Assembly (NCBI GenBank): GCA_025617745.1
Contig: CM046853.1
Location: 61,270,616-61,334,615 of the forward strand
Direction: 5' to 3'
Length of the DNA stretch: 64,000 nt
Source of the DNA: Heliocidaris erythrogramma
Taxonomy: Eukaryota; Echinodermata; Echinoidea; Camarodonta; Echinometridae
Of the stretch, positions 9,395-64,000 are shown in pieces (position 1 is the first letter of the stretch; every line of letters begins with the position of its first letter). Made by a program: the position numbers and the translations under genes. A model generated the notes under the pieces. The model searched no databases and was not told the origin of the DNA. It saw nothing but the letters and a program-made list of their open reading frames with translations.

Positions 9395-9546
9395 TTTGTA
9401 AACAAATTTTTAGGCTTTTACTCCCAGTGTTATAGATCGCATGCTCGATCTGTAATGAAAATCACAAGTCAGAAAAAAAATTTCATTACAGATCGAGCAT
9501 GCGATCTATAACACTGGGAGTAAAAGCCTAAAAATTTGTTTACAAA
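9395..9546. repeat. Perfect 66-bp inverted repeat with 20-bp loop
   Basis: 9395-9460 and 9481-9546 are exact reverse complements over all 66 bases, separated by a 20-base spacer (9461-9480). A transcript would form an uninterrupted 66-bp hairpin. The absence of any mismatch implies a very recent origin, gene conversion or selection. It could be a recent foldback element, a hairpin-RNA locus, or a template-switch event in the genome or during library preparation. Confidence 0.95.
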
Positions 9547-17102: not shown

Positions 17103-19197
17103 TTACCAGCCGTTGACCGGGTTTCTTTCTCCAAGTAAAGCCGATAAATCTAACGCAAGAGCATCTTCTGGATCAACATTGCCTAGTAACATGTCCCTTG
17201 GGTCTTCCACCTCTGGCCTCGTGTCGACCATGATGTCATCCAGGAGATCTTCTAGAGCTAATTCTCCTTCATCTGTATCTTGGTTATCGTTCGTGTCATA
17301 AAGTTGGGTTAGCCTAAAGAAGTCCATGGTGTCGTCTTCCGGGACGAATCGCTTGTTGATGTTCGATTCCTGTTCGAGTGCTTCCCCGCCGACGAACTGG
17401 CGCTTTCCACCAGGAAACTGTCGTTTTCCACCTGGATATTGCCTCTTGCCTCCGGGATACTGTCGTTTACCACCAGGGTACTGTCGCTTACCTCCAGGGT
17501 ATTGTCGGATTTCCATGGGCAGGAGGTCTTGATCGCCTTCCGAACGTTTTCCACCAGGGTATTGCCTTTTGCCACCAGGGTATTGCCTTTTACCTCCTGG
17601 ATATTGACGCTTCCCACCAGGGTACTGTCGCTTGCCACCGGGCCATTGACGCTTTCCACCCGGGTATTGACGTAGCTCTGGTGATGGTATAAGTTCACCT
17701 CCGACGAACTGCCTTTTGCCTCCTGGATATTGGCGCTTGCCGCCGGGGTATTGTCGTTTGCCCCCAGGATACTGTCGCTTGCCTCCCGGATACTGTCTTT
17801 TGCCACCTGGGTACTGGCGTTTCTCTGAATCGGGGGACAACATGTCAAGTTCTTCTTCCTCTGCTTCCTCTGCTACGTCGTCCCAAAATTGATGCCTTAG
17901 AGGGATTTCTTTTCCCTGCACCCAGTCAGCTATCTCTACATATGGACAGAAAAAAATATGAGAGTATAATAAGTTGATAATTAATGATACATGCATTGTG
18001 CAAGTAGTCATGTTGCTTTTACCTAGGACCTACAAAATATTTACAGAAAATGTTATGGTCCAAGCATCACCACAAAACTGAAAGCATTCGTTTAATGATA
18101 TAATTTCATGATAAAAGCATCATCTAGGACTAACATTATTTGAACACAGTAATCATAATTTCGAAATTTGTAAACGTTGGAACGTTTTTAACGTTCCCTC
18201 AAAGATCCAACTCATATGCTTCGTCACACGCTGAAATAATAACCAAAATTGTGTTTAATTTAATATCTTGATAGTGACCATGCTTTGTTGACAACGACTA
18301 CTACACCCTCGCAGTCAGGTAATTATTGTTAGAGATGATGAAAATCACGGACGAAACGATTTCACGCCTAGTTAATTTTAATCAAATGTGACAAGTTTGA
18401 CAAGTATGTAATTGCAACAATCAACTCATAATCGGGGTGAACAAGACGGCAATACTGAAGCAGACCTTGGGTTCTGTCCTGAAATTTCTGTTAATGAACT
18501 TGCAATTATTTATCGGCAAGGTTGACAGGAGAAATGCGAGAGAAATCACGATTAATTGAATGCGTTCACCGACAATTAGAATTTACAACGTCGAAAATGA
18601 TAGAAAAGAATATTATGCAAATACACACTGGTGTGAATTCATGCATATAGACTGAATGTATATATAACGGTTACATGTCGTTTTTCCGAAGGTTCAGAAT
18701 TCCGAAGTTTCTTTTTTCCGACGGTTCGTTTATCCGCAGGTTCGTTACTCCGACGGTTCGTAATTCCGAATATGAAATAGGGTTCATAATTCCAAAAATG
18801 AAAAATGTATTATTATCATTAAATATTTTACTAAGTGATGGTTTGTCTGTGTAACACTTCGTAATCTATTCAAACGAATATTGACGAAATAAAGTTGATA
18901 ATCACGAATATATCCAGTTAAATTAAAAAAAAAAATCAATAACTTTGAAAATAGTGCTGTTGTGTTGGAACCGGTTATATACTACTAAAAAAAAAACGTT
19001 TCCCAAATGCTTGAAGGCAGTCTCTTTCGCAATGTACTCAACTGTATCTTTAAACTGATAATGATTTGAACTGTACCTGGCCCATCGTTCTCAGTAACTA
19101 CGAGTTCTTTTCCTAGGACGGTTGGTAGTGCAGCTCCACCCCACGTGACGTATCCCAGAATGCAAGCCCACAGATATAATCCCACAGTCACCTTCAT
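17103..19197 (-). CDS. TRH: TRH-type neuropeptide precursor
   Basis: Secreted precursor of thyrotropin-releasing-hormone-type peptides, processed in neurosecretory vesicles. Coding exon 1 is 19077-19197 (40 codons plus 1 nt); coding exon 2 is 17103-17935, joined by GT-AG (donor CAG/GTACAG, acceptor TATGTAG/AG). Product 317 aa. Residues 1 to about 23 form a signal peptide (MKVTVGLYLWACILGYVTWG start). After an acidic spacer come 18 peptide units: QYPG x14, QWPG x1, QFPG x1 and QFVG x2. Sixteen are in the form QXPG-G-KR, giving pyroglutamyl N-terminus, C-terminal amide from the extra Gly and dibasic cleavage. The two QFVGG units are followed by Glu and not KR; two blocks begin after a single Arg (ELR, EIR). 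An acidic C-terminal region ends in NPVNGW. This peptide set is the one known from sea urchin TRH-type precursors. A further 5' UTR exon boundary is likely near 19304. Confidence 0.96.
17936..19076 (-). other. TRH-type gene intron with TTCCGA-type short repeats
   Basis: The only intron within the coding region, with a near-consensus donor and a short pyrimidine-rich acceptor. At about 18685-18795 it contains five to six degenerate repeats of a ~19-21 bp unit built on GGTTCGTNATTCCGA. No coding potential was seen. Confidence 0.8.
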
Positions 19198-28700: not shown

Positions 28701-31700
28701 TAAAATCCTATATTACTAATTGACCTCTGACTATAAAGCAATATAATCAGTTGTTCTTGAGATATCGTGGAAATGTAGCCAAAAACTGTATTAATATCAA
28801 GTAAATTGGCCGCTGAGACCTCTGACCTTTGACCTACTTACCCCAAAATCTAATCAGTTCATCTTTCTATGGGGATACATACTGGTACCAAGTTTGAAGT
28901 TCTCACCTCAGATAGTTCTTGAGATATCGCGGTAACGGTGCTAAAAACCAGTAATTTCATGTAATAAGCCAGTTCGGGGTTGCAATCTGAGCATGAGCAG
29001 ATAAAGGTCATCTGTACCAAATTCTAAAACCCACTGACACTAACATTCGATATGTGCTCATGAATGTCATGTAATCATTATTCAATTATGCACTAATGGT
29101 GCATTCCATGATATCCAGGTGGAAGTATTCTTTTTAAAGGGGGAAACAAAAGCTATTCATGAGGCACCTCTATCACTCCCAGAGTTATTTTTCTGAAGTG
29201 CACATAAAGGGACCCTCCATGTCTAAAATATCTGTGGATATTTGGGGTCATTTGTACAATCTCAGTACCATCGCTAACCCCGAACTGGCTTATTTCATGT
29301 AAATTGACCTCTGTGACCTCTGACCTTTGACCTACTTACCCCAAAATCTAATCAGTTCATCTTTCTATGGGGATACATACTGGTACCAAGTTTGAAGTTC
29401 TCACCTCAGATAGTTTTTGAGATATCGCGTTAACGGTGCTAAAAACCAGTAATTCCATGTAATTTCATGTAAATTTACCTCTGTGACCTCTGAACTTTGA
29501 CCTACCTACCCCAAAATCTAATCAGTTCCTCTTTCTATGGGGATACATACTGGTACCAAGTTTGAAGTTCTTACCTCAAACAGTTCTTCAAAAATTGGGG
29601 TAACGGTTCTAAAAACCAAGAATTTCATGTAATTTCATGTAAATTGACCTCTGTGACCTGTGACCTTTGACCTCCTTACCCCAAAATCTAATCAGTTCAT
29701 CTTCGTATAGGGATACATACTAGTACCAAGTTTGAAGTTCTTACCTCAAACAGTTCTTGAGATATCAAGGTAACGGTGCTAAAAACCAGTAATTTCATAT
29801 AATTTCATGTAAATTGACCTCTGTGACCTTTGACCATTGACCTACTTACCCCAAAATCTTATCAGTTCATCTTCGTATGGGGATACATACTAGTACCAAG
29901 TTTGAGGTTCCTACCTCAAATGATTCTTCAGATATCGCGGTAACGAGAAGTGGGACGGACGGACGGACGCACAGACGGACGGACGGACGGACAACCCGTA
30001 AACATAATGCCTCCGGCACCCACCTTTGGTGGGCGGAGGCATAAAAATAGTAATGAATCTCATACACATTATACACTTAAAATGCAACTACTACTCCTGC
30101 TCCATTTCACTGGTTGGAGACTGCTTCAAGAATATGTAGCAAATCTTTCACAGACATTTTGAACATAAGCATTGAAAAGAGAATATGTATGCTTTGGTAT
30201 GGACAATTTCTCCAATAAATATCTTCATTTTCATATATGTACACAAGCATTACCTTTTGAAATCACCAGCACATGAAACAGCTAGAGCCTTAGTGAAGTC
30301 ATCACCAGCACACTCTCGACTGGTCTTGGAAGCTATGACCCGCTGCAGACCATTGGTGACATTGACCACAGACACACTGACTGATGACCCACCTAACCTG
30401 TACACTAAAACATTGCTGTAAGGTAAAAGCCAAAAAAAAAAAAAAAAAATGTGTTGGTAACGATATATCAGCATCAATTAATTCTGCGATTAGTAAAGTG
30501 ATACAACTCATCATCAATTAATTCCACAGTCCATCTCTCGTGGCACAATATCTTCCAACGATATACATTTTGTGAGTGTATGTGTTTGGTCCCTTTCAAT
30601 ACTTTTGCAAAGAATGGTGAATATTGCCCAGTAATAAAGGCAACATCTTGTGAATCTTTCTATTTCCCTAACCACAAACTCCAGCAAACATAATTTGTTG
30701 CTTATATCCCTGTAACATCAACAAGACCAACCAAAAATTTACATTGCACCAAATGGCCAAGATTTTGTCCATTATCAGTCAGTGTGGCAGGGTGACTGGG
30801 ATACTAGCATCCAAGTTAATCTACACATCAACAAACAAAAGTTAGAATTTTAGCACTCTTCTCACCGGGGTTTGCTCGCTATTTATAAAGGACCACTATT
30901 CATTTAGTCACGAGTTATGGATAGCGTCCCTTATGAATAGCGGTCATTATGACTAGCGGTCCTTATGACTAGCATGGTAATTTGTCTATGGTTCACTCGC
31001 TATTTATAAGGGCTGCTATATATAAAGGACCGCTATTCACTTAGTGACGCGTTATGGATAGCGGTCCTTATGAATAGTGGTCCTTATGACTAGCGAGGTT
31101 ACCCCTTCTCACCATGGATCATGTGGTTTTGTCACTCCAATTTCATAAGCTAATACAGCTGCTGACGGATCGCTGATGAGACGAAGTATATTGAAACCTG
31201 CTGCTTCTGCTGCTTTCCTGTATCGGAAAAAGAAATAATACGATTAAAAATATGAGCAGCTTAGCAATCTAAAACAACTGCATCGATAACACCCGGGCAT
31301 TCAAAGGTGACTGCTCTGGTGGGAATTGAACCTGGGGAGCGTTTCATCAAGCGTTTTGTCAGTGATTTTTACTGACAAAGTTGCTCTCAGCCATCAGATG
31401 CAAGAATTTCAGTAGCTTATAACAGTTGTCAGTAAAAATCACTGACAAAAATGCTTGATGAAACACTCCCCTGAGCCACAGTCCATCTGCTGAACTTAAA
31501 GTGTACCAATCACAAACAAATATTTTGCTTTGTATATTAATGGTTCAATGTCTCTATACTATATTCGAAATATGAGCTCCAAATGTTTCTTCTATAAAGA
31601 GATATTACAAGTTGAAATACACTCCCAATAAACAAAACAGCGACTTGTGAGGAGACTAGTGGACACACCCGTACACACTTGCATAGAATAATGGCCAGAG

Positions 31701-34700
31701 CGGAACCCAACTAGGAGTTGGGTTTTATGTTTTCCTTCATTTTCTTCATACTCCTTAACCGTTAACCCATAGAAGGCCAGGTAAAGTGTCTTGAGGTTGA
31801 TTTTATGCATTCTAGCTATTCACAAATTATCTTTTAAGGTGACTGGTACACTGTAAATCTACAAGTATTGTTCGAATAACAAGAAGCACTTACTTAATTG
31901 CTGCCCTCTGGTTGTCAGAGAAGTCGACAGGAAACGTCAGTACTGTGTCCTTCATGTCTTTTCCACCTTGATGCTCTGCAATTTCTGTCAAAAATTAGGG
32001 GGGGGGGAATGAAGAAAATCAATACTCAACCATATGTTTATTTGTTAAATGTAATCTGTGATGCTTTGATAGTAGTCAGTGATGACACAAACAGGTGATC
32101 TGTCTCTTGATAAGAGCTCCTTGTAAAAAGGATAGAGCCAATCTTTCTATAATACACACAGTTTATCAAATTCATAAAAGATGCAACAGACTGTTTTAAA
32201 TACTAGTACATGTATTGTTATATATCAAATATATTAACAATTCAGTGGTTGCTATTTTTTATCAGTTTCATGCTCTGTATTCAGAATCACCGCACAATTT
32301 CACAGCAACTTACTACAAGCAAGGAAGAAAGCTTATTAAAATTCACAACAGAAATCAGCTTGAAATTCCAACCACATGAAAATGATAAGTTTACAGCCGT
32401 TTTTGCTGTTCCTTGCAAATGCTATTTTGATATCACTCTATAACCTTTCAGAAACAATATAAATTCAATGCTCTACACACTTTTTCTCTTCCCATCCCCA
32501 CCCCCTCGCAAGAAAAATCTGAACTATTTATTACCTGCTTCAAACCTGAAGAGGAACATAAAAGAAAGAGAGCTTCAAACCTTTCAGCTTCTTGAAGACC
32601 AGCCCAGCCACTTCTAGGGAAGATACAATGTTCTTCTTATTGTTGATTTCAATTTCAAATCCAGCGAGTCCCTTGCTCTCCACGACCCTGAATGGAGACT
32701 GTCTTTTCAAGTCCTGGATGACCTGGTCTTCAAACTTCCTGCCGACAACATGCTTCACTTGCATCACTGTGTTGACTGGATTACGCATTCTCCCTTGCTT
32801 GGCAGCCAAACCAACAATCTGACAAAGACAATTGACATCATACTACACTGACATGTTGTTCGTCAAAAGAGGTTACAATACAATGGTCATCCAAGGGACT
32901 GGGTTCTCCCGGAAAGTTCCAAGTATGATTTTGTGGAACTGTACTGATTGTAAAGGACATGGCCATGGTCATGATCATGATGAAATTACAGTTATTGAAT
33001 TCTAAACTTAATCGATGACATACAAACTGACATTGATATCAGTAAAACTGCAATTTACAGAAAAGGCTAAATATTTACTGACATGTACTATATCTACCCG
33101 AGAAATTTCATATGCAAACTTAGTAGGCAACATGACTTAAAATCCAGTTACTGCTTTTAGATTAATATAATAAATAATGCAAAAATAATGTTTTTGTCAC
33201 AGGACCTTTTGGGAGGTTTTGTCAATTAATAATGAATTTTGAAATGCTCTTGCTAACAATACACTCCACAACTACCCAACAAGACAACCAAACTTTTCCA
33301 TCTTCCCCACAAGAGAACACTCTTAGGTCACAAAACTTTTATCTTTGGGCAATTCCATGAAAAATGTTCACTTTAGTAAAAAAATGAAGTTTGCAATTGC
33401 ACTTAAACTCTCAAATATTCTTGAAAAGTAATGTATAAATGTTCATTTTCCAATAGACAAATCATTAAACCGACAAATTTTCGTATTTTTTTCCACCAGT
33501 GAAAATTTAATATGATGTATCGCAATAACACAAAAATGTGGCTATTTTTGAAGAGTTTATTCTTCCTGTCTCTAATGAAGGCCTAAAATCTACTGGAGGT
33601 CTCCTTCAACTTTTAAACAGTAGTTCAGTGTACATATTAACAGAAAATCACAATGAATGTTTATATCATTCATCAATTTTCGAGGCATTGATCCTCAAAA
33701 TTGTGTGATTTCTTTATCATTAGAAGTGTCATGTCCGTTACGTTTTTCACTTAAAGTTTTCATAGCCAACAGGAAATTTGTATTTGGTTACTGTAAATTC
33801 AGTTTCTATGTTAGAACTAAATCCCCTTACATGTGTAGCAACCATTTTTCCTTACCACTGTCAGTTTTCAAGCAAATGGCGTAACGGACATGACACTTTG
33901 CGTAACGGACATGACACTTTATATACGACAAGTGGCAGAAACCACATTGTGGGCTCCATTTAATAGATTGATTATTATTTTCAATTGCTTGAGGATAGTG
34001 GGATGTTTCTAGATACTAGTGACTCATAAATATAAATCTGCTTGTTATATTTAAGAGACAACAACAAGCAGATTTTCCAATTTCCCCATGAAAGTCTGTA
34101 GATTTCAGATGATCTTGCTAGCCCTGTTATGTAATCCCATTCCAACATCTTGATCATGATTGATGACCAACATGCAGCAGCAGGTATGTCCCTGTTTATT
34201 TACATAGTGGATTACTGAAGCCAAGACAATGCAGTTCCACTATTGGCCATCTCCCTAGCACTTTTCCATGATAACTTAGACCTCATTTCATAATGACACT
34301 GGTTTTGTGGAACTGCTTTAGTGCATGTTGCAGATACATGTAGTTAACTTTCTTTCTTTAAAACTGATGTGAATCATTCAGGACATTTTCATGATATGTT
34401 CAAACTTTTGATCAGGTCTGGTTCATTAAGTTTTCTTTGCCTCAAAGCTTGAGACGTGCTCTACTTTGTTGTATGTTGTTGTGGTACTAAGCATTATATT
34501 CCATGCATTGTAGTATAGTTGTTAGATCACTAAAACCTGCAAAAAAGAACTTAGATGTGTTACTATTTAACATTTGGTAGTAGTACTGAGCTGTTAGTTT
34601 TGTCTTTTTTATGCCAAATGTTTTTTTGAAAGAAAGAAGTGAAGATATGGTTCACTTCACAAGGGTGTCATGTCCGTTACGCTAGCATATTAATACTATC

Positions 34701-37700
34701 TGAGAAATATTAGCCTATAAAGGAGAAAACACCATAGCATCAACTAATAATTTGTTCTGTTTTGGTATGGAGGGTAGTATTAACTAAAATGTATCATAAA
34801 TTGTAGCTAGCTGGTGCAGAAGCAAGTTTGCTTTATTTTTTATATCTTGTGTAAACATTGAAAAACCAACCCTTCTAAAATTACAGAAATATATGAGATA
34901 GTACAGAATACCAGTTATGATGTGTGTCCCTATCTTTCAACCTTACTATATGAACAATAAAATATCTGCTATATCTCGTAATAAAACAAATATGTCCGCT
35001 CACAAAAAGTGGACAAAACTGTCATGTCCGTTACGCTCAATGCGTCATGTCCGTTACGCTACATTCTGAGCTATAAAAAAAGAATGCAATGTAAAACTAA
35101 TCTCAAACATGAATTTATGATTACAGCATGACTTTAAGTTTTAATTAATACCCAAACCAGGTTCATTCTATCCCAAAACTCACAGGAATTTTCATAATAA
35201 AAAGTAGGTTAAAAAGCCTTGTCCATTTTGTGTCATGTCTGTTACGCTCACAACGAGTGTATTTTCTCCACAACCGTTCAATAAAATAATGTGAAATTTC
35301 ATGAGTATATCCCTGATAGTCAAATGTGTCTGATAAACTCAATAAAAATTGTTTGGAGACTGCCAATTCTATTGTGTGATGTTTTGAATTACAAAAAACT
35401 GTCTGAATGTCATGTCCGTTACGCTGGAATTGACCCTTTACAGGTCCCAAATTTTGGAATAGTCTTGATCCAAACATTAAGGAAGAAGAGACGGCACCGG
35501 TTTAAAAAAGAACTGATATCTCTTTTGCTGAACCCTTATCATACAAATAAATATCCCTCCCCTGTCCATCTTCAACACAATACAAAATGCCCTTGTTTTC
35601 TCATGACAGACTGCTGCATGGTTGCAGATCTCGATCTCCACTTCGCTCCTCTCATTTCTCTCTCTCTCTCTCTCTCTCTCCTTCTCTACAATAATTTAGT
35701 CTTTTCATGTTCTGTTCTGTTTTCATTTGCTGATTTTCATACTTTCTTTGTTTCTTCTCATCTTGATCTCACCAATTATACTTTCCAGCTCCTTTTCTTT
35801 TCTAAATGGGAACCCAACTCGACATGCCCCGCTTTAATAGGCTCCCCACATATATACTGTGTATGCGTTTACTATAACTACTGGAAAATATTTACTATAA
35901 TGAGCTGTTGTGATATATGTATTACTCTTTGTATTATGTCATCTGATTTTTATGCTTAAAAAATATAGTTTGCTTCTCATTGTCATTCATTATGTAAACT
36001 GAACATGGAAACAAATCAAATCAAATCAAGTTAGCTTTCGCTACAGTGTTTATCGAGTGTGTAAGTCTAATATAAGTTGTTTTTTCAACTAGACATCTTT
36101 TAAAATTTTTGTTTCCCCCAGAACTCTTTTGGACTTTGCCATTGCTAAATCATTCTCTAAATCTTTATATCTTTACATTGCCAACAAATCAATATGTCTG
36201 AAACTGTGTTGTGTTTGCTTAGAAGAGAAATTGCACAGAGCAGAGTGTAATAAACACTGAGCACATTTCGAGGGAAATATACCTTTTCATTTTCCCTGTA
36301 CGCAACAGCAGTAGGTGTTGTTCTGTCTCCAGCATCATTGGCGACTACTTCTGTTTTACCATCCTGCAAAAGAAAAAGGAAAATAATAAGAAAGAAAGGA
36401 AAAAAATTATGGTGCCAAGTGACAGTGATTGTTATCTTCCTGGAATTACACTGGCACTGATCGGACATTAGTCTGTGAGATATGAATACAGGGAAATCCG
36501 ACCTTAATGGCAAGTTGTTCAAAAAGAAAGCAGAAAAATCATGTAAGCAGAACAAAATTGGACAAGCAATAAGAAAGTTAAGAATTTTTAAAAGTTGTAA
36601 TCACTATACTAAAGTTGATTTGAATAAAAGAAGAAAAATGAGAGAAACAGATTAGTGAAATTTTGAGCAAAATCCAGTAAAAAATAAGACAATTTTGATT
36701 TTTTTAAATTTGTAATCGATCAAACACGAATTGGTAACTCAGTGACATATCTTGCAAGCTCCTCTTCCATTTGCTCAGTACAGAAAATCTCATAAATGTT
36801 CATTTTCTTAGTTTTTGATGAAGGGATAGATTTGTTTCATACAGGTTTTGTGCAAAAACACACCAGTAATGATTATATCTAAGGTGCTCTTATGATTGCA
36901 TATTTCATTTAGAGAAAATGGAAATTAATGATTATTGGGGTACAGGGCACATGCGAGAGGAGCTCACAACACTTTATGCAGTTGCTAATTTGTGTTTGAT
37001 TGATTACAACTTCAACAAGAGCCCCAGGGGGCACAACGCTCACCTGAGGTGGATCAATTCACATCTGGTGCATGTTCTCTTTAGCACCACCGGGAGATAT
37101 GTTAGAAATTGAAACAACTAGGAGTATGTACATGAGATGATGATAGAAATTAACATAATTCCCCCCCCCCCCACCCCTCCAGTATGTTACCCCCACAGAC
37201 CCCCTATAGGGCCACCCAGAAAAAATTCATGAACAACTTTCATTTTTTGTCTATAGAGATATCCCCATACACAATACCAAGTCTGAGCTATTCCTGGTTC
37301 TGGAGAAGAAGATGTTTGAAATTTACATAGCTTTTACACTTGGGGCCCTTCCCCTGGGCCCCCCTGGGGGCCACATGTACCATTTTAGCAACTTTGGATC
37401 CCCTACCCCTAAGGATGATTCCTACCAAGTTTGGTTGAATTCCAATCATGTGTTTTGGAGAAGATCAGAATGTACATTTTACCTGGCAGCGCCCCCCCCC
37501 CCCCCTCCAGTATGTTACCCCCACAGACCCCCTATAGGGCCACCCAGAAAAAATTCATGAACAACTTTCATTTTTTGTCTATAGAGGTATCCCCATACAC
37601 AATACCAAGTCTGAGCTATGCCTGGTTCTGGAGAAGAAGATGTTTGAAATTTACATAGCTTTTACAATTGGGGGCCCTCCCCCTGGGCCCCCCTGGGGGC

Positions 37701-40700
37701 CACACGACGGACAAATTTCCATCGCAGTAGCTCACTCGAGCCTTAGGCTCTGGTGAGCTAAAAATGCATAACTTTCTTATTTCTCATCCTTATCATATTT
37801 TGCTTTTCTGCTTCTTTTAAAACCAACTTGTATCAGCGTGGACTTCCCCTTTAATTTTTCTCCTTTTTTAAAAACCAACTTAAGTTGATGATATCAGGGC
37901 ACTCATGAATCATCACTTTGTGGGGCTGTCAATTTCAGTGGCGGTCGCAACCTTTAAGTTAAAGAGGTGAAAACATCAATACAATAGGCAAAATACTGAG
38001 AAAATACTTCCTTCTAACATTTTAGGATGATAGAAAAGCTAATTTCATGCCGAATTCTTCAATAGGATCTTTATCATCTTGATCAAATGAAATTTTCAGA
38101 TCGTTTTTTTGGCCAGCGATCTTGCTCTTTATACAGTGTAATGTGCTAATATGGGAGGCAATTCTCTGGTATAAAGGTATGACACCCAAATTTGATGACA
38201 AAAAATGCATTTACAAATACCGACACCAGCATGTCCATGAATTACAATAAACTCAACTCAGCATTGTTGGAAAAGATAATTTCAAAAATAAAACCCGTAA
38301 TTTACTGTCAGTTCTGGCGAAGCGTTGTATCGGAGTCATGGTGTATATTTCTTAGGCCCCGCAAGTGCTAAATCTCAGAAAATAAATCTGGTCATCAAAA
38401 ATTTGGTCCCTATCGCACACACATAAAAGGTCTTGATTTCAGTGTGTGCAATCGTAGAGGTCGATGTGCGTGCGCGATACAGAGTTTCTTTGAGGACAAA
38501 AATTTATTGGCCGAGTTTAGTCTAATTATCGGCTGAATAAAAACAACATGCGAATGATGCGATGCCGTAACAAATAGACGGGGATCTCTTCAGTTTTGGA
38601 ATGATTTTGACTTTGGATTTTGCTGGAAATATTGAAAGTTATTCCTACAGTAGAGGCGCATGGCCGATATTGGAGACTGTTTCCTATTTGGGAGACCATC
38701 TCTATTATCAGACTTGTGTCAACATTTTTGATAGCCTATTTGGGAGACAGTCTCCCATTTACGAGACCAATTTTCTTTGTTTACACTTGCGGCAAAGGAA
38801 TTACCTTGGCTCAAAATGAAAATGTGATGAGCAGATTCCTCATGAAAAAGTACCCCTTTTGACCTTCTATTTTAAAAATCCACTTTTGTTTTCATAACAT
38901 TTTTTGTTATGATCCACACAAAAAACAATTGCCAATGGGCTTCAGGGCCCCGTCTCATAAAGATGTCCTTTGTGGGATGGTCCCGATCGGCATAGCTTTA
39001 GGTACCTAACCGTTTCTCAAAGACGTCCTTTCGGAAAAAATGCGCAAGGTCCCGCCAGGGACACCTCTGGATATGTCCTTCCTCCGTCACATAGAGGGCG
39101 CCACCATCGGCAGGGAAGAAATAGACAATTTACGGAACGCTAGTTGTTTAAATTTAATTAAGTGTATTATGTCGGATCGGTACGAACTGTATGGGTAAGA
39201 TCGCTTATCAATATCACGTTTTGTTCTCATGTTATGGCTTCTAGAAAAATAGCAATACTATCCACAAATCTCTGTTATGTCTCTCATGTGTCCGGTCTGA
39301 GCCGTAATACCTCCAATCTACTATCATTAGGAGATTTATGTCGACCCCGTTTGTCGCTCAAACTTAACTGCAAGCAGCGAGCGCGATAGCTAGCCGCACT
39401 GGGAAGGCTCGGGAAATAAGGATTGTTAATTACTTTCAGAGAGAAAAAACGGGAGAATGTGAGAAAAAAGGGACAGGAGAGACAATGAAATAGATTTGTA
39501 GATAACATCTTGTTGTTTGGTGCCATTGAGAACAAATGTGATGGTGATGACCGGTCCCACTCACGCCTATACTAAGTAATAATACTACACTAAAACGTGC
39601 GTATCTAATTAGTACTAGTATAATTATAATGTCAAAGACGAAGCAACATGTACATGCCATCCACTTAATTTTACTTTCAAGCTTCAGAAGTTATTTTATG
39701 TTTTTTGTATGAAGAGGGGGTGATGAAATACAATAAGGTTATAAATTTTATGAAACTAATTCTCAAATTATGCTAATATAATTACGTATGTGATTAATGA
39801 TTTTTCCATATAAAAGCGATACCATAGATAAGAAAATTATAACACAACATATTTACGCCAACACGTACATCGGAGCTAGGGTATATGTATGTGTGTGTGA
39901 TGGTATGTGTGTGTGTGTGCGCGCATGCGCGTATATGTACATGACGGTGCGTAAGACTGATCTGTTTAATAAATAACAATCATTACTTTTATAATCTCAT
40001 ACTCCTGACAAACACTTATAAACAGATATGCATATATCGCCATGTACACATGCACACACGCACGCACACACGCAACGGGTGTCATTTCATACTTATATAC
40101 CTACCGATCGACGTGTGCACGTACACACATACATAATGCGTCAACTAATAGGATACAAAAACTGATAAAAAATTAAATAATTTTGTTAACAATGGTTTTT
40201 CATACTTTCGGGACTATTCTAGTATACCCAGACTTTAAACACTCCGTAACATTTGTTTTCTTCACACTTATGGCATAAATTGTTATATTGTGGTAGATTT
40301 ACATTTTCTTATGATACAAATTTCAATTCTAGTTCAAATTATTCACATGAATTCATGAAAATCTGCTATTTTAACATTTATTTGTAAGGTCTTCTAGAAA
40401 TACTGTCTGAATGCTATAAATAGCATTCTATGGTGTCGTTCGAAACATAATCATGCCTCTGGAGGAAAAAGAAATGAAACTAAGTTTTACTAATCGTTAT
40501 CTTTATTGCGTGGAGCCTTTTACTCCGTGTTTCTTCCAAACCAAGCTTCATGTGAACGAGGATACGTATGTGGTAGAGAAACAAAAATACGCCCACCATT
40601 TCAGCGGGGAATTAGCCTTTTTACATCCCAACGTTTAATGATTAAATGTGAAGCTCATGATCAAGGCTACAAGATATGACCGATATTATCGATAGTGCAC

Positions 40701-42927
40701 GTTGTCGTTATAGTCGATGCCAATCACATCTTCGTGAGACGGTTTGGTCCCTGAAGGGACTGGCAGTCCTTCCGCCGTGGGATGGTCCCGATCGGGATGG
40801 TCCCTGAAAGGACCCTTTTGTGGGATCCTACCCTGATTTCTGAGAGGAAAAAATTTGGGCGAGAAAAAGTGCCTTGTTGTTGTTTCTATTGTCCTCTTGT
40901 TAGCAAAGTCTCCAATATCAGAGACTGTCTCCCAAGTGGGAGCGAGTCTCCCAAATCGGCCATGCGCCTCTACTGTCCAATGGCCATTTAAAATTTTAAT
41001 TTGTGTGAGATTTTTAAGAGCTGAATTTGAAAGAAAGTACTCAAAATATTTAGATTTATCTTATTTCCCCCCTAACTATACACAGCGCTGTCGCGCTTTT
41101 TTATTAAATTACATCCTTTCTTGAAGTAAATATAGTACCAAATCAAGCTTAGACTATTAGTTTATTGCGCTCCCTAACTTAAATTTAATTAACTAACTTA
41201 AAACTTACCAAAAAACGATGATTTATTGCGTCTGCCATGTCTGCCCACAGTAGCTGTACTATCGCCTCTGCCGTTTGCGAGACGAGATTTATCATTTAGT
41301 GCAGCTACTGTGGGCAGACATGGCAGACGCAATAAATCATCGTTTTTGGGTAAGACCGTAAGTTTTAAGTTAGTTATTAAATTTAAACTTAGGGAGCGCA
41401 ATAAAGTAATAGTTTAAGCTTCATTTGGTACTATAATTACTTCAAGAAAGGATGTAATTTAATCAAAAAGCATGTAGTCGCAATTTTGTAGTCGCAGTTC
41501 GCAACTCTTTTGAATGGCCAGCTTGTACAGCGCTGTCGCGAAGCGCTGTCGCGAAGCGCTGTCAATTTTTCATGGCTGTCAGGACTCAACATGCTCAAGC
41601 TCACATCAGCAAGCAATGGTCATATTGACCATTAGGAAATATACATGTGTGTATACTGGGTATTGGGGATACAGACGTAATTTTGTTTCAAATGGAAGTT
41701 TTTGTGGGCAAACTGATACTTAGGTTTCATTCTATATATATTAATTTATAAGTTCGTTAAGATACAAAATGTAGAAAGTTATAAAAACTTACATTTACAG
41801 CCTTCTTTTTCGTAGTTGTTACAGAGACATCCATACTTATGACGACTGCTCTCAATATGTTGCGCACTAGTGAGGCCGCTCTATATGGTTACGCACCATA
41901 GATACGTACACAGAATGTTACGCACACAAGCTATACGGACAAGGTCGATATTACAACGACGGGTGGCCGTTCTCTCCCAAAGACTTTTTCAATTATTGCT
42001 CCTCGCTGTAAAGCACTTTGCACCAGAAGGAATACAGAATGTAGAGAATGCACGATGAGAAGCCTTATCGCTAGACTAAACTCATTAACAACCCCCATGC
42101 TGTCTTAACAACAGGTAAACAACGAGGTGGAGTTCGATGATCCGATCGCGCCGGTACCACTACGAGCGCTGAGGGCTCCCTTCATCATAATCGTGTAAAA
42201 TACAAAATGGATGCTCTGACCGGATCTCGATAGGTGATTTCGCAAGAAATTCCCCAAAATTTCAGGAAACCCTCTTCAAAAGTGACAAAACAAACTGGTA
42301 AGTTGTAATCATCTATTATTCACCATAATTAGCTATCTTACAGTACATTTCAACCGAAGGTTTTCACTTAAATATAGCCAAAAATGCACAGTGATACATA
42401 TTAGTACCGTACTGACTATTGCCTGCGTTCCTACACAGTCGGCAATGGCGTGTGCCTATGAGTGCTCAAGCTGTGCATTATTTCCCCCCCCCCCCCCCCA
42501 TACATTTAGTATGTGCGATAGAAAATAGGTAGTATTATTGGCATTAGTCGCTTACAAGTCAATACGACCACTAGTTGGTGTGCTTTTCTCTCCCCCCCCC
42601 CCCCCCTTCTTTTCCTTTTTTTTTTTTAATTTCTCTTTCCTCAATCAATGCTCCTTTTGCAGTAGGAGAGCGAGGCACGTCAGGGAGGAAGAAGACTACG
42701 CAAAAATAGACGCGCGGGACTGTATCATTAAATCACACGTGCATTCATAACTGAACTATCTTAGTCTTTTCAATCCTAATTACACCGGAATCCCATTACA
42801 TAAATAATAATTGAATTCAACTATTGATTTTGACTGATTGAGGTTAGTCAATTAAATAAAACCATACCTTGTGAATGGCCACACAAGAAGTTGTTCCGCC
42901 AAAGTAAATTCCTATGGAGGCTGCCAT
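25715..42927 (-). CDS. HSPA14: HSPA14, atypical Hsp70 (3' end missing in gap)
   Basis: Cytosolic Hsp70-like ATPase; in mammals it pairs with the J-protein DNAJC2 (MPP11) on ribosomes to help nascent chains. Ten coding exons assembled by GT-AG and phase: 42868-42927, 36283-36363, 32581-32818, 31894-31984, 31113-31217, 30254-30415, 28139-28294, 26837-26939, 26257-26385, 25715-25804, giving 405 residues. Landmarks: N-terminal phosphate-1-like loop [13 protein letters not shown] (residues 5-17), then [17 protein letters not shown]; the actin-fold helix [20 protein letters not shown] (exon 5); the second phosphate loop [12 protein letters not shown] (exon 6); the adenosine motif [14 protein letters not shown] and [12 protein letters not shown] (exon 9). 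Human HSPA14 is 509 aa; about 100 C-terminal residues, including the stop, are not found and probably fall in the N gap. Divergent partner of MANF. Confidence in identity is high, in exon borders good. Confidence 0.93.
26979..27140. mobile_element. Tc1/mariner-type MITE relic in HSPA14 intron
   Basis: Starts TACAGTCAAACCTGTATAG and contains internal inverted copies of GGTCTTTATARRCAGGTGGTC. The CAGT...AACC end next to TA is typical of Tc1/mariner-derived MITEs. The right end is decayed. Confidence 0.5.
27186..27290. repeat. Degenerate telomere-like CCCTAA-rich stretch
   Basis: Irregular CCCTAA/CCTAACC hexamers (for example GACCTAACCCTAACCATAAC) interrupted by other sequence, within an HSPA14 intron. 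Resembles a decayed interstitial telomeric repeat or a satellite-like repeat. Confidence 0.55.
28607..30049 (-). mobile_element. Pearl/Tsp-like non-autonomous element with tandem units and (ACGG)n
   Basis: Lies in the HSPA14 intron between exons 7 and 6. It contains one older and four clear direct repeats of about 171-172 bp (starting near 28801, 29297, 29468, 29641 and 29811), then an ACGG-type tetranucleotide run (29953-29992), then a hairpin-forming end with GCCTCCGGCACCCACC and its near-complement (about 30010-30044). The opposite end has ATGCCTCCGC at 28609. This order (tandem core, ACGG microsatellite, hairpin end) matches the pearl elements of bivalves and Tsp elements of sea urchins. 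A copy in opposite orientation is at 61695-62815. Each unit carries nuclear-receptor half-sites (see findings). Confidence 0.75.
30867..31105. mobile_element. 239-bp hAT-like MITE inserted at the HSPA14 exon 5 splice donor
   Basis: Ends are inverted (GGGGTTTGCTCGCTA at left, TAGCGAGGTTACCCC at right) and the interior is two palindromic repeats built on TATAAAGGACCGCTATTC. It is flanked by identical 8-bp direct repeats TTCTCACC at 30859-30866 and 31106-31113; an 8-bp target duplication is characteristic of hAT elements. On the minus strand the duplicated octamer is GGTGAGAA, the last exon base plus the first seven intron bases of exon 5's donor site, so the 5' splice site is now present twice. 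Confidence 0.8.
31334..31471. mobile_element. 138-bp MITE (GGGGAGCGTTTCATCAAGC ends) inside a SINE-like sequence
   Basis: Terminal repeats GGGGAGCGTTTCATCAAGCG and GCTTGATGAAACACTCCCC enclose inner inverted copies of TTGTCAGT.AAAATCACTGACAA. A second family member lies at 46226-46363. On the minus strand, flanking sequence on one side contains GGTTCAATTCCCACC (a tRNA B-box form) and on the other GGACTGTGGCTCA (A-box-like). The MITE therefore seems to have split a tRNA-derived SINE. Confidence 0.7.
33727..35425. repeat. Cluster of eight copies of TGTCATGTCCGTTACGC
   Basis: Copies at 33727-33742 (+, lacks the final C), 33879-33896 (-), 33900-33917 (-), 34665-34682 (+), 35019-35036 (+), 35042-35059 (+), 35230-35247 (+, one mismatch) and 35408-35424 (+). 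The two minus copies form a 21-bp tandem pair; 35019 and 35042 are a 23-bp-spaced pair. Sequence between copies is otherwise AT-rich and not repeated. All lie in the HSPA14 intron between exons 3 and 2. Function unknown; see findings. Confidence 0.9.
35650..35680. repeat. (TC)n microsatellite
   Basis: About 30 bp of TC dinucleotides in the HSPA14 intron. The 222-codon open frame around it (35291-35959) is a low-complexity artefact with no splice or domain support. Confidence 0.85.
37011..37760 (+). mobile_element. Element with ~327-bp tandem units and GAGCCTTAGGCTC hairpin end
   Basis: Two tandem units (CCCCCACAGACCCCCTATAG at 37190 and 37517) are followed by a GACGGAC segment and a terminal palindrome AGCTCACTCGAGCCTTAGGC at about 37731-37756. 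The same units and palindrome occur in reverse orientation from 62821 to the window end. It is non-coding; the recurrent ~75-codon frames in each unit are by-products of the repeat. Located in the HSPA14 intron between exons 2 and 1. Confidence 0.75.
38650..40985. mobile_element. Possible 2.3-kb non-autonomous element with inverted ends
   Basis: The left end (about 38650-38690, CAGTAGAGGCGCATGGCCGA, then TTGGAGACT) recurs inverted at about 40895-40980 (TCGGCCATGCGCCTCTACTG). Both ends have extra GGGAGACAGTCTCC-type palindromes. A GGGATGGTCCCGATCGG motif occurs inside near each end (38974 and 40783), and the interior has a TG/CA microsatellite (39885-39925 and 40045-40075). No transposase-like coding was seen. 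Confidence 0.45.
41083..41562. mobile_element. Foldback element with ~160-bp inverted arms
   Basis: Left arm (about 41096-41255) and right arm (about 41300-41470) are imperfect reverse complements: GGATGTAATTT with ACTTCAAGAAAG at the outside, GCAGCTACTGTGGGCAGACA at the inside, with a ~45-bp loop. CAGCGCTGTCGCG lies outside both arms (41083-41095, and as a 2.5-copy tandem at 41528-41562). Lies in the first HSPA14 intron. Confidence 0.75.
42484..42606. repeat. Two poly(C) tracts near the HSPA14 first exon
   Basis: C runs of about 15 bases at about 42484-42499 and 42592-42606, followed by a T-rich stretch. They are intronic to HSPA14, 260-380 bp from its first coding exon. Confidence 0.85.
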
Positions 42928-51069: not shown

Positions 51070-52047
51070 TCACAAAGCAACAACTGGTAAAGTTACAGTG
51101 GAACAGTCAAAAGAAACAAATGTGAAATGTTCACACAGATCTACAGCATGACATATAGACTCTTTCCAATCTGAAATACAATTACTTGCAGTTTCCAGTA
51201 AGCTGGTTGGAATACTGAAAGAATAAATAACATGATTCTTGTTCTCAAACAAGTTGGAAGATCTTCCTACGACATCCAGAGTATCCATCCCCACAGGCTT
51301 TACCATGCAATCACATTTACATTTAATCACATGGAGAGGAGTATGAGCCAGGCAGTTGTCCTGGACATGGAGATCAATCTGATACCAGTAGGATGCTGGA
51401 TATCCAAGCAGAAGGCCGAATATTGTGGAGACATTCCAATCGTCTTTGAGATGAAGATTCAATACCAAATCACAAGAATTCATATCAGCAAATCCAGCTT
51501 CAATCTGTCTCAAAATGTCTTCAGCAATCACCACCATCTGCTCAACAATCTTTCTGTCCGCCCAGGCTGGACTGCGTAATTTCCCACTAACATCAATAAT
51601 GGCACAAAGTCGCTCATCGTAGTGTTCAGATCTTGCAAACCCATCACTGGCATCACCATGATCACTAGATCTAGAGTTTGAAACCAGCTGTGCTAGTTTA
51701 CTTATTAAAATTTGCTTGTTGATGACAAATACATCGTCTTGAATAGTCAATACACCAGTTGATCTGGGGTGCAAAATTTCTCTATTGTCTTGTTTTTCAA
51801 CCTTGCAATTGCCAAACTCGGCTGATGTTAAAGGCTTCGCTTTCTTATCTGTGCGGCAGTTGCAGATGCACATCAATTCAATTTCTGTAGCCAGTTTGTC
51901 CAGGGATTTTGAGTCGCATGATGAATAATCATACAGAAAACTTGGTTTTATCCCTCCAATGACCGCGATGATATCACTTACTATGTTTTTCCATCGTCTA
52001 CCAGCAGTTTTACCCAAGTAATGTGAAACCTTGTTCTGAAAATCCAT
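51070..52047 (-). CDS. C1orf74/UPF0739 family protein
   Basis: 325-aa protein encoded in one exon. From memory of the human protein, it matches the C1orf74 (UPF0739) family: an early VIGGIKPSFLYDYSSC segment (residues 30-45; human VAKGLKPAVLYDC), then DWNVSTIFGLLLGYPASYWY (about 204-223; human DWNLCTVFGILLGYP), DNCLAHTPLHV (about 231-241), YSFSIPTSLLE (about 273-283) and the terminal VTLPVVAL. There is no signal peptide or membrane segment, and the biochemical function is unknown. The insert between residues 50 and 130 is longer and charged compared with the human protein. An acceptor TTTTAG lies one base before the ATG (exon starts 52048), so a 5' UTR exon exists upstream, but the coding region is intronless as in vertebrates. 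Divergent from the EF-hand gene. Confidence 0.88.
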   Translation of the reverse strand: MDFQNKVSHYLGKTAGRRWKNIVSDIIAVIGGIKPSFLYDYSSCDSKSLDKLATEIELMCICNCRTDKKAKPLTSAEFGNCKVEKQDNREILHPRSTGVLTIQDDVFVINKQILISKLAQLVSNSRSSDHGDASDGFARSEHYDERLCAIIDVSGKLRSPAWADRKIVEQMVVIAEDILRQIEAGFADMNSCDLVLNLHLKDDWNVSTIFGLLLGYPASYWYQIDLHVQDNCLAHTPLHVIKCKCDCMVKPVGMDTLDVVGRSSNLFENKNHVIYSFSIPTSLLETASNCISDWKESICHAVDLCEHFTFVSFDCSTVTLPVVAL

Positions 52048-53632
52048 TCTAAAACAGGAAAATAGCTTTTGAAAATGTGTAAGTTAGTGGGACCACACTG
52101 CTAAAATGATGGTCGTAAACTCATGGGCGCAGCCATATTAGGATTTTCTGCTTAAATGTTTTTAAAGAACTTTAAGAATGACAAATTTAATAAATTGTAT
52201 TTTTAAATTTTTTAAAATAATTTAAAACATTTTAAAATTATTTTAAGGCTGCAATAATGGATTTATGGGCTTAAATTTATGTTTACATATTTTACTTCAT
52301 TCTTTGATTGGCAGCATGGGTTGCCTTTGCGACACTGACGTCATACCCTAGCGCTGGCGCTGGCGAGCTCATTGATGGAGGCAATCAAGATATCCGGGAT
52401 GACTATGTATGGACAGCTAATTGATGATGGTAATCAGCTATGCGGAGCTTGTTATTTATCATGACTCAAAGTTCTAACTTGAGCTAGCTTTATACTACAG
52501 TCCTGATTACATCGAGCCCGGCTGAGGTCGCCTTGGCTTTGATTTGACTTTTTTGAGGCTGAGCCTGAGCTTGAGCCTGAGGCTGAGCAATAGACAAGAC
52601 TCAAGAGTTCGACGCCGCCGACCCGGGCGGTAGCGCCAGCGGTCGCGGTCTGGAGCTGAGCTGCAGCCCGCACTGCACTGGCATTACATCGCGAGAGTGT
52701 GACTGTAAGTGTGACTCAGTAAGATGGGGTGTTGCAAGAAAGTTGCAATCAATTGCAAATTGTAAAGCAAATTAGAACAACCATCCTGAATGATTCAGGG
52801 TCTGCCCATTCAAGAAGATGCGCTTGCAACAAAGATTTTGATTGGTCAGTACTGACATGACCGATCAGTTGCAACTTGCAATCAATCGCAACTTTCTTGC
52901 AACACCCCATAAGTAAAACTAATATTAATAAGACTAAATTTTTTAGGCTTAAATATTCAAATATGAATGACGAGTGCCGGTAAACCTAAATAAAACAACA
53001 ACAACAAGAACAGAATGAGAAATTGCAGATTAATTATGGAAATGCTAACCTAATTGAAGAAATATATTTGACATTGCTTGCCTTTGCAAAGCCAAGGTTT
53101 CATTGTGACTCAACTATAATTGCACAATTTGTAGTCAACTTTACTAGTTTTTGTTAGCAGGGTGGGTGATTAGGAAAAAAAGTTTTAGTCTGGACTGGTT
53201 TTGGAAAGAACTAGGCCTAGTCCCCCAAAAGGGTGGTGCTGTACACTTTTTGATTTCATGCTGATGTAATATTGCATTTTTTCAAAATCATTAAAGCTAT
53301 TCCAACAAATGTATCATTTTGAAGAAGATAGATCTATTATTACCATGCCATTCGCCTGCATAGTTTCATTGATATATTATTATATAGACATGATAGAAGT
53401 TATTATTTTTACACAAATCATGTAGACTATATTTAATTCATGGTAAAGAAATGTATGCCAGATGCTTGAACTATAATTATAAATATTGAAAAGGGAAAAT
53501 TATTTTGTTACTAAATTATAAATTTTCTTTTCTTTTTCCTTATCCTAGTTTCATACATAAACAAGGATACAACAATAGCCATGAATAAAAGACTTAATTG
53601 AAAGTGTTCTTATTTCACATTTCATCATCAAG
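52048..53632. promoter_or_regulatory. Shared upstream region of C1orf74-family and EF-hand genes
   Basis: Relatively GC-rich with CpGs around 52310-52700, unlike the AT-rich surroundings, which fits a promoter. A plus-strand donor GACT/GTAAGT at 52704/52705 could end a 5' UTR exon of the EF-hand gene, whose first visible coding exon begins just after an AG at 53631-53632. A MITE (52724-52910) follows immediately. Transcription starts were not determined. Confidence 0.5.
52724..52910. mobile_element. 187-bp MITE with ATGGGGTGTTGCAAGAAAG ends
   Basis: Left end ATGGGGTGTTGCAAGAAAGT and right end CTTTCTTGCAACACCCCAT are near-perfect inverted repeats of about 34 bp, the arms continuing with TTGCAATCAATYGCAA. 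Non-coding. It begins 20 bp downstream of the putative 5' UTR splice donor. Confidence 0.85.
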
Positions 53633-61694: not shown

Positions 61695-62815
61695 CAGGAG
61701 TTTTTATGCCTCCGCCCACCGTAGGTGGTGCCGGAGGCATTATGTTTTCGGGTCGTCCGTCCATCCGTACGTCCGTCCCCTTTTCGTTCTCACGATAACT
61801 TCAAAACCGTTTGGAGGATCAGTTTGTAACTTGGCCCATGTATGCATATGGGAGGGACGAGGAACTGATTAGATTTTGGGGTCTCAAGGTCAAAGGTCAA
61901 AGGTCATAGAGGTCATTATATACATAAAAATGGTTCGTTCTCGCGATAACTTCAAAACCGTTTGGCGGATCAGTTTGTAACTTGGCCCATGTATGCATAT
62001 GGGAGGGACAATGAACTGATTAGATTTTGGGGTCTCAAGGTCAAAGGTCAAAGGTCATAGAGGTCATTATATACATAAAAATGGTTCGTTCTCGCGATAA
62101 CTTCAAAACCGTTTGGCGGATCAGTTTGTAACTTGGCCCATGTATGCATATGGGAGGGACGATGAACTGATTAGATTTTGGGGTCTCAAGGTCAAAGGTC
62201 ACAGAGGTAATTATGTACATAAAAATGGTTAGTTCTCGCAATAACTGAAGAACTGTTTGACAGATCAGCTTCTAGCCTGGCCCATGTTTGCATATGGGAG
62301 GGACGATGAACTGATTAGATTTTAGGGTCTCAAGGTCAAAGGTCAATACATAAAAATGGTTCGTTCTTGCAATAACTTCAGTTGTTTGACAGATCAACCT
62401 CTAACTTGGCCCACGTATGCATATGTGAGGGACGATGAACTGATTAGATTTTAGGGGATCTCAAGGTCAAAGTTCAAAGGTCATAGAGGTCATTATATAC
62501 ATAAAAATGGTTCGTGATGTTTGGAGTCTAGGCCTACCTATTTTAGAAATTTCAAGGGGACAGTGGTCTATTTGCTATAAAATATCTACCGTATTTCCTT
62601 GGTGTATTTGATGATTGTAAGTCATCAGTGGTAATTAAGTTTTTTATTTGAAAATAAAATAAAATAAACTTTCTGTCTCCTGTGCTTTTGAAGTGAAAAG
62701 ATTTGTAATTTTGATGGACCAATCCTTTTTAAAGTGTACATGTATGCTATACATTGCCAATCTGATGATGGCGGAGGCATAAATTCCGACCACGCGTGGT
62801 CGGAGATTCATCTAG
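61695..62815 (+). mobile_element. Pearl/Tsp-like element, second copy, with Helitron-like 3' end
   Basis: Begins TTTTTATGCCTCCGCCCACC, forms a hairpin with GGTGGTGCCGGAGGC, then a GTCC-rich (complement ACGG) run (61755-61782), then about five direct repeats of ~150 bp (AGGTCA clusters near 61887, 62038, 62189, 62333 and 62463). It ends with GGCGGAGGCATAAATT, the perfect palindrome CCGACCACGCGTGGTCGG (62786-62803) and CTAG at 62812-62815 followed by T. A hairpin shortly before a terminal CTRR fits the Helitron 3' end rule. In the EF-hand gene intron after exon 12. Confidence 0.75.
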
Positions 62816-62820
62816 TTTTT

Positions 62821-64000
62821 GAGCTCACCTGAGCCTAAGGCTCGAGTGAGCTATTGCGATGGAAATTTGTCCGCCGTGCGTCGTCCGTCGTGCGTCGTCC
62901 GTTAACTTTTTACATTTTCATCTTCTTCTCCAAAACCCATGATCGGAATTCAACCAAACTTGGTAGGAATCAACCTTAGGGGTAGGGGACCCAAAGTTGC
63001 TAAAATGGTACATGTGGCCCCCAGGGGGGCCCAGGGGGAGGGCCCCCAATTGTAAAAGCTATGTAAATTTCAAACATCTTCTTCTCCAGAACCAGGCATA
63101 GCTCTGACTTGGTATTGTGTATAGAGATACCTCTATAGATGAAGAATGAATGTTGTTCATGAAATTTCTCTGAGTGGCCCTATAGGGGCCCTGTGGGGGT
63201 AACATACTGGAGTGGGGGGGGGGGGGGAGGCGCTGCCAGGCAAAATGTACATTCTGATCTTCTTCTCCAAAACACATGATCGGAATTCAACCAAACTTGG
63301 TAGAAATCATCCTTAGGGGTAGGGGACCCAAAGTTGCTAAAATGGTACATGTGGCCCCCAGGGGGCCCAGGGGGAAGGCCCCCAATTGTAAAAGCTATGT
63401 AAATTTCAAACATCTTTTTCTCCAGAACCAGGCATAGCTCAGACTTGGTATTCTGTATGGAGATACCTCTATAGATGAAGAATGAATGTTGTTCATGAAA
63501 TTTCTCTGAGTGGCCCTATAGGGGCCCTGTGGGGGGTAACATACTGGAGGGGGGGCGCGCTGCCAGGCAAAAATGTACATTCTGATCATCTTCTCCACAT
63601 CACATGATCGGAATTCAACCAAACTTGGTAGGAATCATCCTTAGGGGTAGGGGACCCAAAGTTGCTAAAATGGTACATGTGGCCCCCAGGGGGGCCCAGG
63701 GGGAGGGCCCCCAATTGTAAAAGCTATGTAAATTTCAAACATCTTCTTCTCCAGAACCAGGCATAGCTCAGACTTGGTATTGTGTATGGAGATACCTTTA
63801 TAGATGAAGAATGAATGTTGTTCATGAAAGTTTCACTGAGTGGCCCTATAGGGGCCCTTTGGGGGTAACATACTGGAGGGGGGGGGGCGCTGCCAGGCAA
63901 AATGTACATTCTGATCTTCTTCTCCAAAACACATGATCGGAATTCAACCAAACTTGGTAGGAATCATCCTTAGGGGTAGGGGACCCAAAGTTGCTAAAAT
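62821..64000 (-). mobile_element. Element with ~330-bp tandem units (continues beyond window)
   Basis: Begins with the palindromic GAGCTCACCTGAGCCTAAGG segment (62821-62853) and a CGTCGTCCGTCGTGCGTCG stretch, then at least 3.5 direct repeats of 326-337 bp (GGAATTCAACCAAACTTGGT at 62947, 63283, 63609 and 63942). Each contains a GGGGCCCAGGGGGAGGGCCCCC block and a poly(G) tract. Reverse-orientation relative of 37011-37760. The ~75-aa minus-strand frames recur once per unit and have no independent support as genes. Confidence 0.8.

Follow-up and report, generated by a model that had tools for sequence, protein, structure and literature searches.

We analyzed a 64,000-nucleotide stretch of the sea urchin genome of Heliocidaris erythrogramma (contig CM046853.1; hereafter the window), in which a cluster of a 15-17 bp motif lies in an intron of an HSP70-family gene. 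The cluster belongs to a young, non-coding, non-autonomous cut-and-paste DNA transposon at positions 33347-35435, and the motifs are internal sites of this element. The pattern is striking and real, and its cause is ordinary, i.e., a new or uncatalogued transposon of a known type.

A motif cluster inside a young DNA transposon

The original prediction, made from this DNA alone, had described eight near-invariant motif sites at 33727-35425 (six plus-strand, two minus-strand), with two close pairs, and our search confirmed this arrangement. With a tolerance of 3 mismatches, the 17-bp motif TGTCATGTCCGTTACGC was found at 8 sites (33727-35424; 6 plus, 2 minus), each with at most 1 mismatch; 5/8 were exact over 17 bp, and 3/8 carried a single change. 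The chance expectation was a mean of 0.03 sites in shuffled sequence, with 0/100 shuffles reaching 8, and the next-best matches to the 15-bp core in the window were 2 sites with 3 mismatches each. The element and its sites are arranged as follows.

33347..35435, plus strand: complete non-autonomous DNA transposon of 2089 bp, with ends defined by 17 other aligned full copies
33343..33346, unstranded: left target-site duplication CTTT, from flank comparison
35436..35439, unstranded: right target-site duplication CTTT, from flank comparison
33347..33357, plus strand: 5' terminal inverted repeat GGGCAATTCCA, 11 bp
35425..35435, minus strand: 3' terminal inverted repeat GGTCAATTCCA (minus-strand reading), 1/11 mismatch to the 5' repeat
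33727..33743, plus strand: motif copy 1, last base T
33879..33895, minus strand: motif copy 2, from the motif search
33900..33916, minus strand: motif copy 3, forming a 21-bp tandem pair with copy 2
34666..34682, plus strand: motif copy 4, from the motif search
35020..35036, plus strand: motif copy 5, from the motif search
35043..35059, plus strand: motif copy 6, with C as its first base and lying 23 bp past copy 5
35231..35247, plus strand: motif copy 7, differing from the family consensus by a single C to T change
35408..35424, plus strand: motif copy 8, adjoining the 3' inverted repeat

The exact 17-mer was then counted across the genome (1.06 Gb, 26 contigs), where it occurred 1445 times (708 and 737 on the two strands), while the reversed motif, used as a control over the whole genome, gave 0 matches. 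Motif places were listed in order, the first 100 comprising 96 on one contig (C1) and 4 on a second (C2), and the loci examined (L086-L104, with L096 being that of the window) covered every listed group or single site on C1, 18 in total, plus the first C2 group. The matches listed on these contigs fall into regularly spaced groups, and the complete stretch 33347-35435 is present in 18/19 loci, in segments that match the window copy at 96-99% identity; the nineteenth locus, L102, contains a diverged relative of the element. By our own count, 95 of the 96 exact motifs listed on C1 are inside 17 element copies and 1 is in L102, and extrapolation from 95 motifs per 17 copies gives perhaps about 260 copies in the genome.

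Motif spacing is nearly constant across the C1 copies, nested inserts aside. Scored on the 15-bp core with at most 3 mismatches, all eight motifs are kept in 14/18 full copies and seven in 4/18; a unit of the 35020/35043 pair is absent from L088, L092, L098, and L103 (4/18 full copies). The genome-wide count and flank comparison that the original prediction had proposed showed the motif to be clustered, with common flanks, in the examined loci. Its statement that the DNA between motifs is unrelated held in part: the flanks of the motif copies share little with one another, except for the 21-bp tandem pair at 33879/33900, but the same intervening sequence accompanies the motifs in the further clusters that were examined.

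The element starts with GGGCAATTCCATG and ends with GCTGGAATTGACC, and these fixed ends are common to 18/18 full copies examined, L103 being altered in the first few bases of its 5' tip. Identical 4-bp flanks were present on both sides of 17/18 copies, with L089 off by one base. Among the 18 duplications, 11 consist of A/T alone and 7 match AWWT, non-matching ones including CTTT, ACCT, and CTAT; A is the first base in 13 and T the last in 16. The insertion targets (L086-L101, L103, and L104) also look palindromic around the duplication, with Y before it in 15/18 and R after it in 14/18. An exact empty site, looked for via the tandem repeat beside L101, was not found, and this result was not used as evidence.

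The majority consensus is 2091 bp long and the 18 copies are 0.10-1.49% away from it; therefore, the element has moved recently. Of the alternatives listed in the original prediction, that of a degraded DNA transposon with subterminal transposase sites was right as to the DNA transposon, and the sites fit, but copies this close to their consensus are not degraded. The longest open frame per copy is 75-96 codons (18 copies, with nested inserts removed and tip-open frames counted), and the longest stop-closed frame wholly inside the window copy is 75 codons. Four of the 18 copies are lengthened by foreign inserts, i.e., L088 (621 bp), L089 (3569 bp), L097 (813 bp), and L099 (930 bp); the inserts of L089 and L097 are themselves bounded by clear inverted ends, and those in L088 and L099 have no plain ones. 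The motif is absent from all four inserts, and none was accepted as an autonomous version of the element. The nested 3.6-kb insert of L089 (L089:3288-6856) has the inverted ends ACCCCGTTTACACAGAG / GACCGCGTTTACACAGAG, with ATAG repeated at its borders, and the longest frame overlapping it is 130 codons.

In a search of the open-licence PMC literature, with Repbase and Dfam outside its range, one 12-mer of the motif occurred in a vaccine paper and a terminal sequence in 14 papers; the vaccine paper and the 13 others listed are unrelated by title, and the family may already be catalogued in either database. The 16-mer of the motif matched 75 prokaryotic and 2 viral stretches, with a single match in each and no clusters, which by our own estimate, made without a control run, is about the chance level for collections that large. 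DNA comparison with phages gave one 28-base match at E 0.6, and Rfam gave nothing over 32000-37000 at E up to 1.

Intronic position and proposed role of the motif array

In the window, the element is flanked by two exons of a minus-strand gene of the HSP70 family, putatively HSPA14.

32540..32842, minus strand: frame with the HSP70-family exon downstream of the element-bearing intron (PF00012, E 3.2e-12, profile 45-122)
36157..36600, minus strand: frame with the upstream HSP70-family exon (PF00012, 19.3 bits, below the 20.6 cutoff, profile 16-44)

This intronic position is what favors a conserved enhancer belonging to the HSP70-family gene, and the original prediction had given a homotypic Myb-type enhancer as one reading. 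The same block, with 7-8 sites, nonetheless recurs at 17 further places among those examined, in 16 of them between identical 4-bp flanks of its own, and a motif cluster particular to the HSP70-family locus was accordingly rejected. The ancestral enhancer reading fails because the block recurs elsewhere as a transposon, which is the very outcome that the original prediction had named as turning the cluster into a transposon property, and we regard such an enhancer as extremely improbable. Insertion into this intron was presumably incidental. The case also carries a caution, in that motif clusters called at a single locus can be parts of transposons.

Within the transposon, the motif is most likely the binding site of the element's transposase. 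We predict this role because motif 8 abuts the 3' repeat and L102 retains the 3' four-site array. An autonomous relative would supply the transposase in trans, and the DNA-binding domain of this enzyme would bind the motifs; the sites would thereby load the enzyme chiefly on the 3' side of the element, where motif 8 adjoins the inverted repeat, and catalysis would then occur at both element tips. Taken jointly, a recent non-coding transposon with predicted transposase-loading motifs and an incidental insertion into the intron is the account that we consider probable.

The relative in L102 (L102:2751-3575) is 825 bp long, is flanked by TAAT on both sides, and has the tips GGGCAATTCC/GGGCAGTTCC, which are similar to the element ends. 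A rule used in Repbase places a non-autonomous pair in the same superfamily when the duplications are equal in length and the 11 terminal bases differ by at most 1 mismatch (PMC4455052); the 5' tip of L102 agrees with it (1/11 mismatch) and the 3' tip does not (3/11). The 3' body of L102 aligns with the element despite these 3' tip mismatches. The 3' four-motif array is kept, with spacing of 23, 199, and 201 bp versus 23, 188, and 177 bp in the element. In the aligned 3' part, the two are identical at 55/60 motif positions versus 279/391 others (Fisher p = 0.0003), and when the exact copy through which L102 was discovered was left out, motif identity was 40/45 (p = 0.007).

These data also bear on whether the motifs are functionless internal repeats generated by local duplication or template switching. 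Two of the features above agree with such an origin: the sites include two tandem pairs, and 4/18 copies are short of one unit of the second pair, so units can come and go; nor is motif conservation within the family significant (see below). However, the flanks are unrelated among the eight copies, pairs aside, and the 3' array persists in a relative that is ~71% alike outside the motifs within the aligned part. We therefore find this origin quite improbable.

Base composition provides a further line of evidence for the predicted binding sites. Each motif core has two CpGs, which account for 16/26 CpGs of the consensus, while outside the motifs (with a margin) there are 9, with an observed/expected ratio of 0.18. 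Retention of CpGs in the motifs against the CpG-poor remainder suggests constraint on the motif. The same retention would also agree with the motifs being sites for a host DNA-binding protein, e.g., of Myb type, carried for expression, opening, or replication of the element. The motif core includes TAACGG, a Myb-type site as the original prediction noted, and a spread over 1.7 kb in both orientations would be tolerable for a host factor. In a variant of this explanation, the element may spread the site as a ready-made regulatory module. Against it, the element would gain little from transcription because it is without a long open frame; motif 8 directly adjoins the 3' inverted repeat, and it is the 3' array that L102 and the element have in common; and the exact motifs listed on C1 are all inside these elements. 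A host protein is thus an unlikely owner of the sites.

Several observations weigh against the transposase-loading account. The comparison with L102 is that of one element pair, and L102 was picked up through its exact motif; the 5' motif trio is absent from it, and some non-motif stretches, e.g., consensus 1961-1993, reach 13/15 identical bases. Within the family, change in the motifs (6/2100) versus the rest (154/35323) did not differ significantly (Fisher p = 0.39), and neither did change at motif CpG positions (3/578 versus 6/336; p = 0.08). The 5'-terminal 380 bp are motif-free, and a two-ended binding model is thus not shown. Finally, neither a transposase nor an autonomous copy was found among the examined loci, where frames of the element and its inserts were not compared with protein families.

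A bolder form of the transposase-loading account is that mobility of this transposon, of unassigned superfamily, relies on a mostly one-sided 1.7-kb array of 15-17 bp CpG sites, an idea that we put forward tentatively and as rather unlikely. If true, transposase would be loaded far from the cleaved 5' tip, maybe in a manner sensitive to CpG methylation, and copies of the element would also scatter near-identical arrays across the host genome. It is this one-sided loading model that merits a test. Altogether, a puzzling "enhancer" in an intron proves to be a transposon, whose family is now described by exact ends, a target-site duplication, and a rough age, and the motif array offers a handle for tracing the autonomous partner and testing for the binding protein.

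Other features of the window

A frame at 17103-18029 (minus strand) encodes a neuropeptide precursor with many KR-flanked QYPGG/QFPGG/QWPGG units; it has a weak match to the Pfam TRH family (19.5 bits versus a cutoff of 27.8), and it appears to resemble the TRH-type precursor of sea urchins. At 51070-52083 (minus strand), a 337-amino-acid frame matches Pfam DUF4504 (E 8.2e-32). Several repeats were also present. Tandem units of ~330 bp occur at 37162-37764 and 62817-64000, 25 kb apart and in opposite orientation, and are 88-98% alike where listed. The tandem arrays at 61783-62515 (151-bp units) and 28753-29931 (170-bp units) have a common part in inverted relative orientation. Positions 41095-41471 form a long fold-back with nested inverted arms of 114 nt and 58 nt (91% and 97% complementary), and a perfect inverted repeat of 66 nt, with arms 20 nt apart, lies at 9395-9546.

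Comparison with known DNA transposons

The target-site duplications of hAT elements are 8 bp long, those of piggyBac are TTAA, and those of Tc1/mariner are TA; Academ and Chapaev are further superfamilies with 4-bp duplications. By these traits, hAT is excluded by the 4-bp rather than 8-bp duplication of the element, piggyBac by TTAA flanks in 0/18 copies, and Tc1/mariner by duplications of 4 bp and varied sequence. Ginger1 and Ginger2 have the 4-bp target duplication in common with the element; however, Ginger elements are described as having TGTNR ends and repeats of ~40-270 bp (Ginger1) or 50-180 bp (Ginger2) (PMC2836005), and the GGGCA/GGTCA ends and 11-bp repeats found here exclude them on that description.

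Sola2 elements are described as having imperfect inverted repeats of 12-21 bp and AT-rich 4-bp duplications such as AWWT, ATAT, and AAAT (PMC3627910). The element resembles them in its 11-bp repeats with 1 mismatch and the 4-bp length of its duplication; in sequence the duplications are often AT-rich, but only 7/18 match AWWT and 11/18 are A/T alone. Compared by description, Sola2 thus appears to fit the duplication length and the short imperfect repeats, and we assign no superfamily because no autonomous partner was found among the examined loci.

As for the motif array itself, an analogy may be drawn with the hAT transposon Hermes, which has several copies of a short site inside both ends, arranged unlike at each, with the left-end sites bound by the BED domains of the transposase (PMC10368747). 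The element would likewise have a subterminal array of short sites that is unequal at its two ends; the AAGT sites of Hermes are packed close to the tips, five of them in the first 55 bp, whereas the 15-17 bp sites of the element are spread over 1.7 kb.

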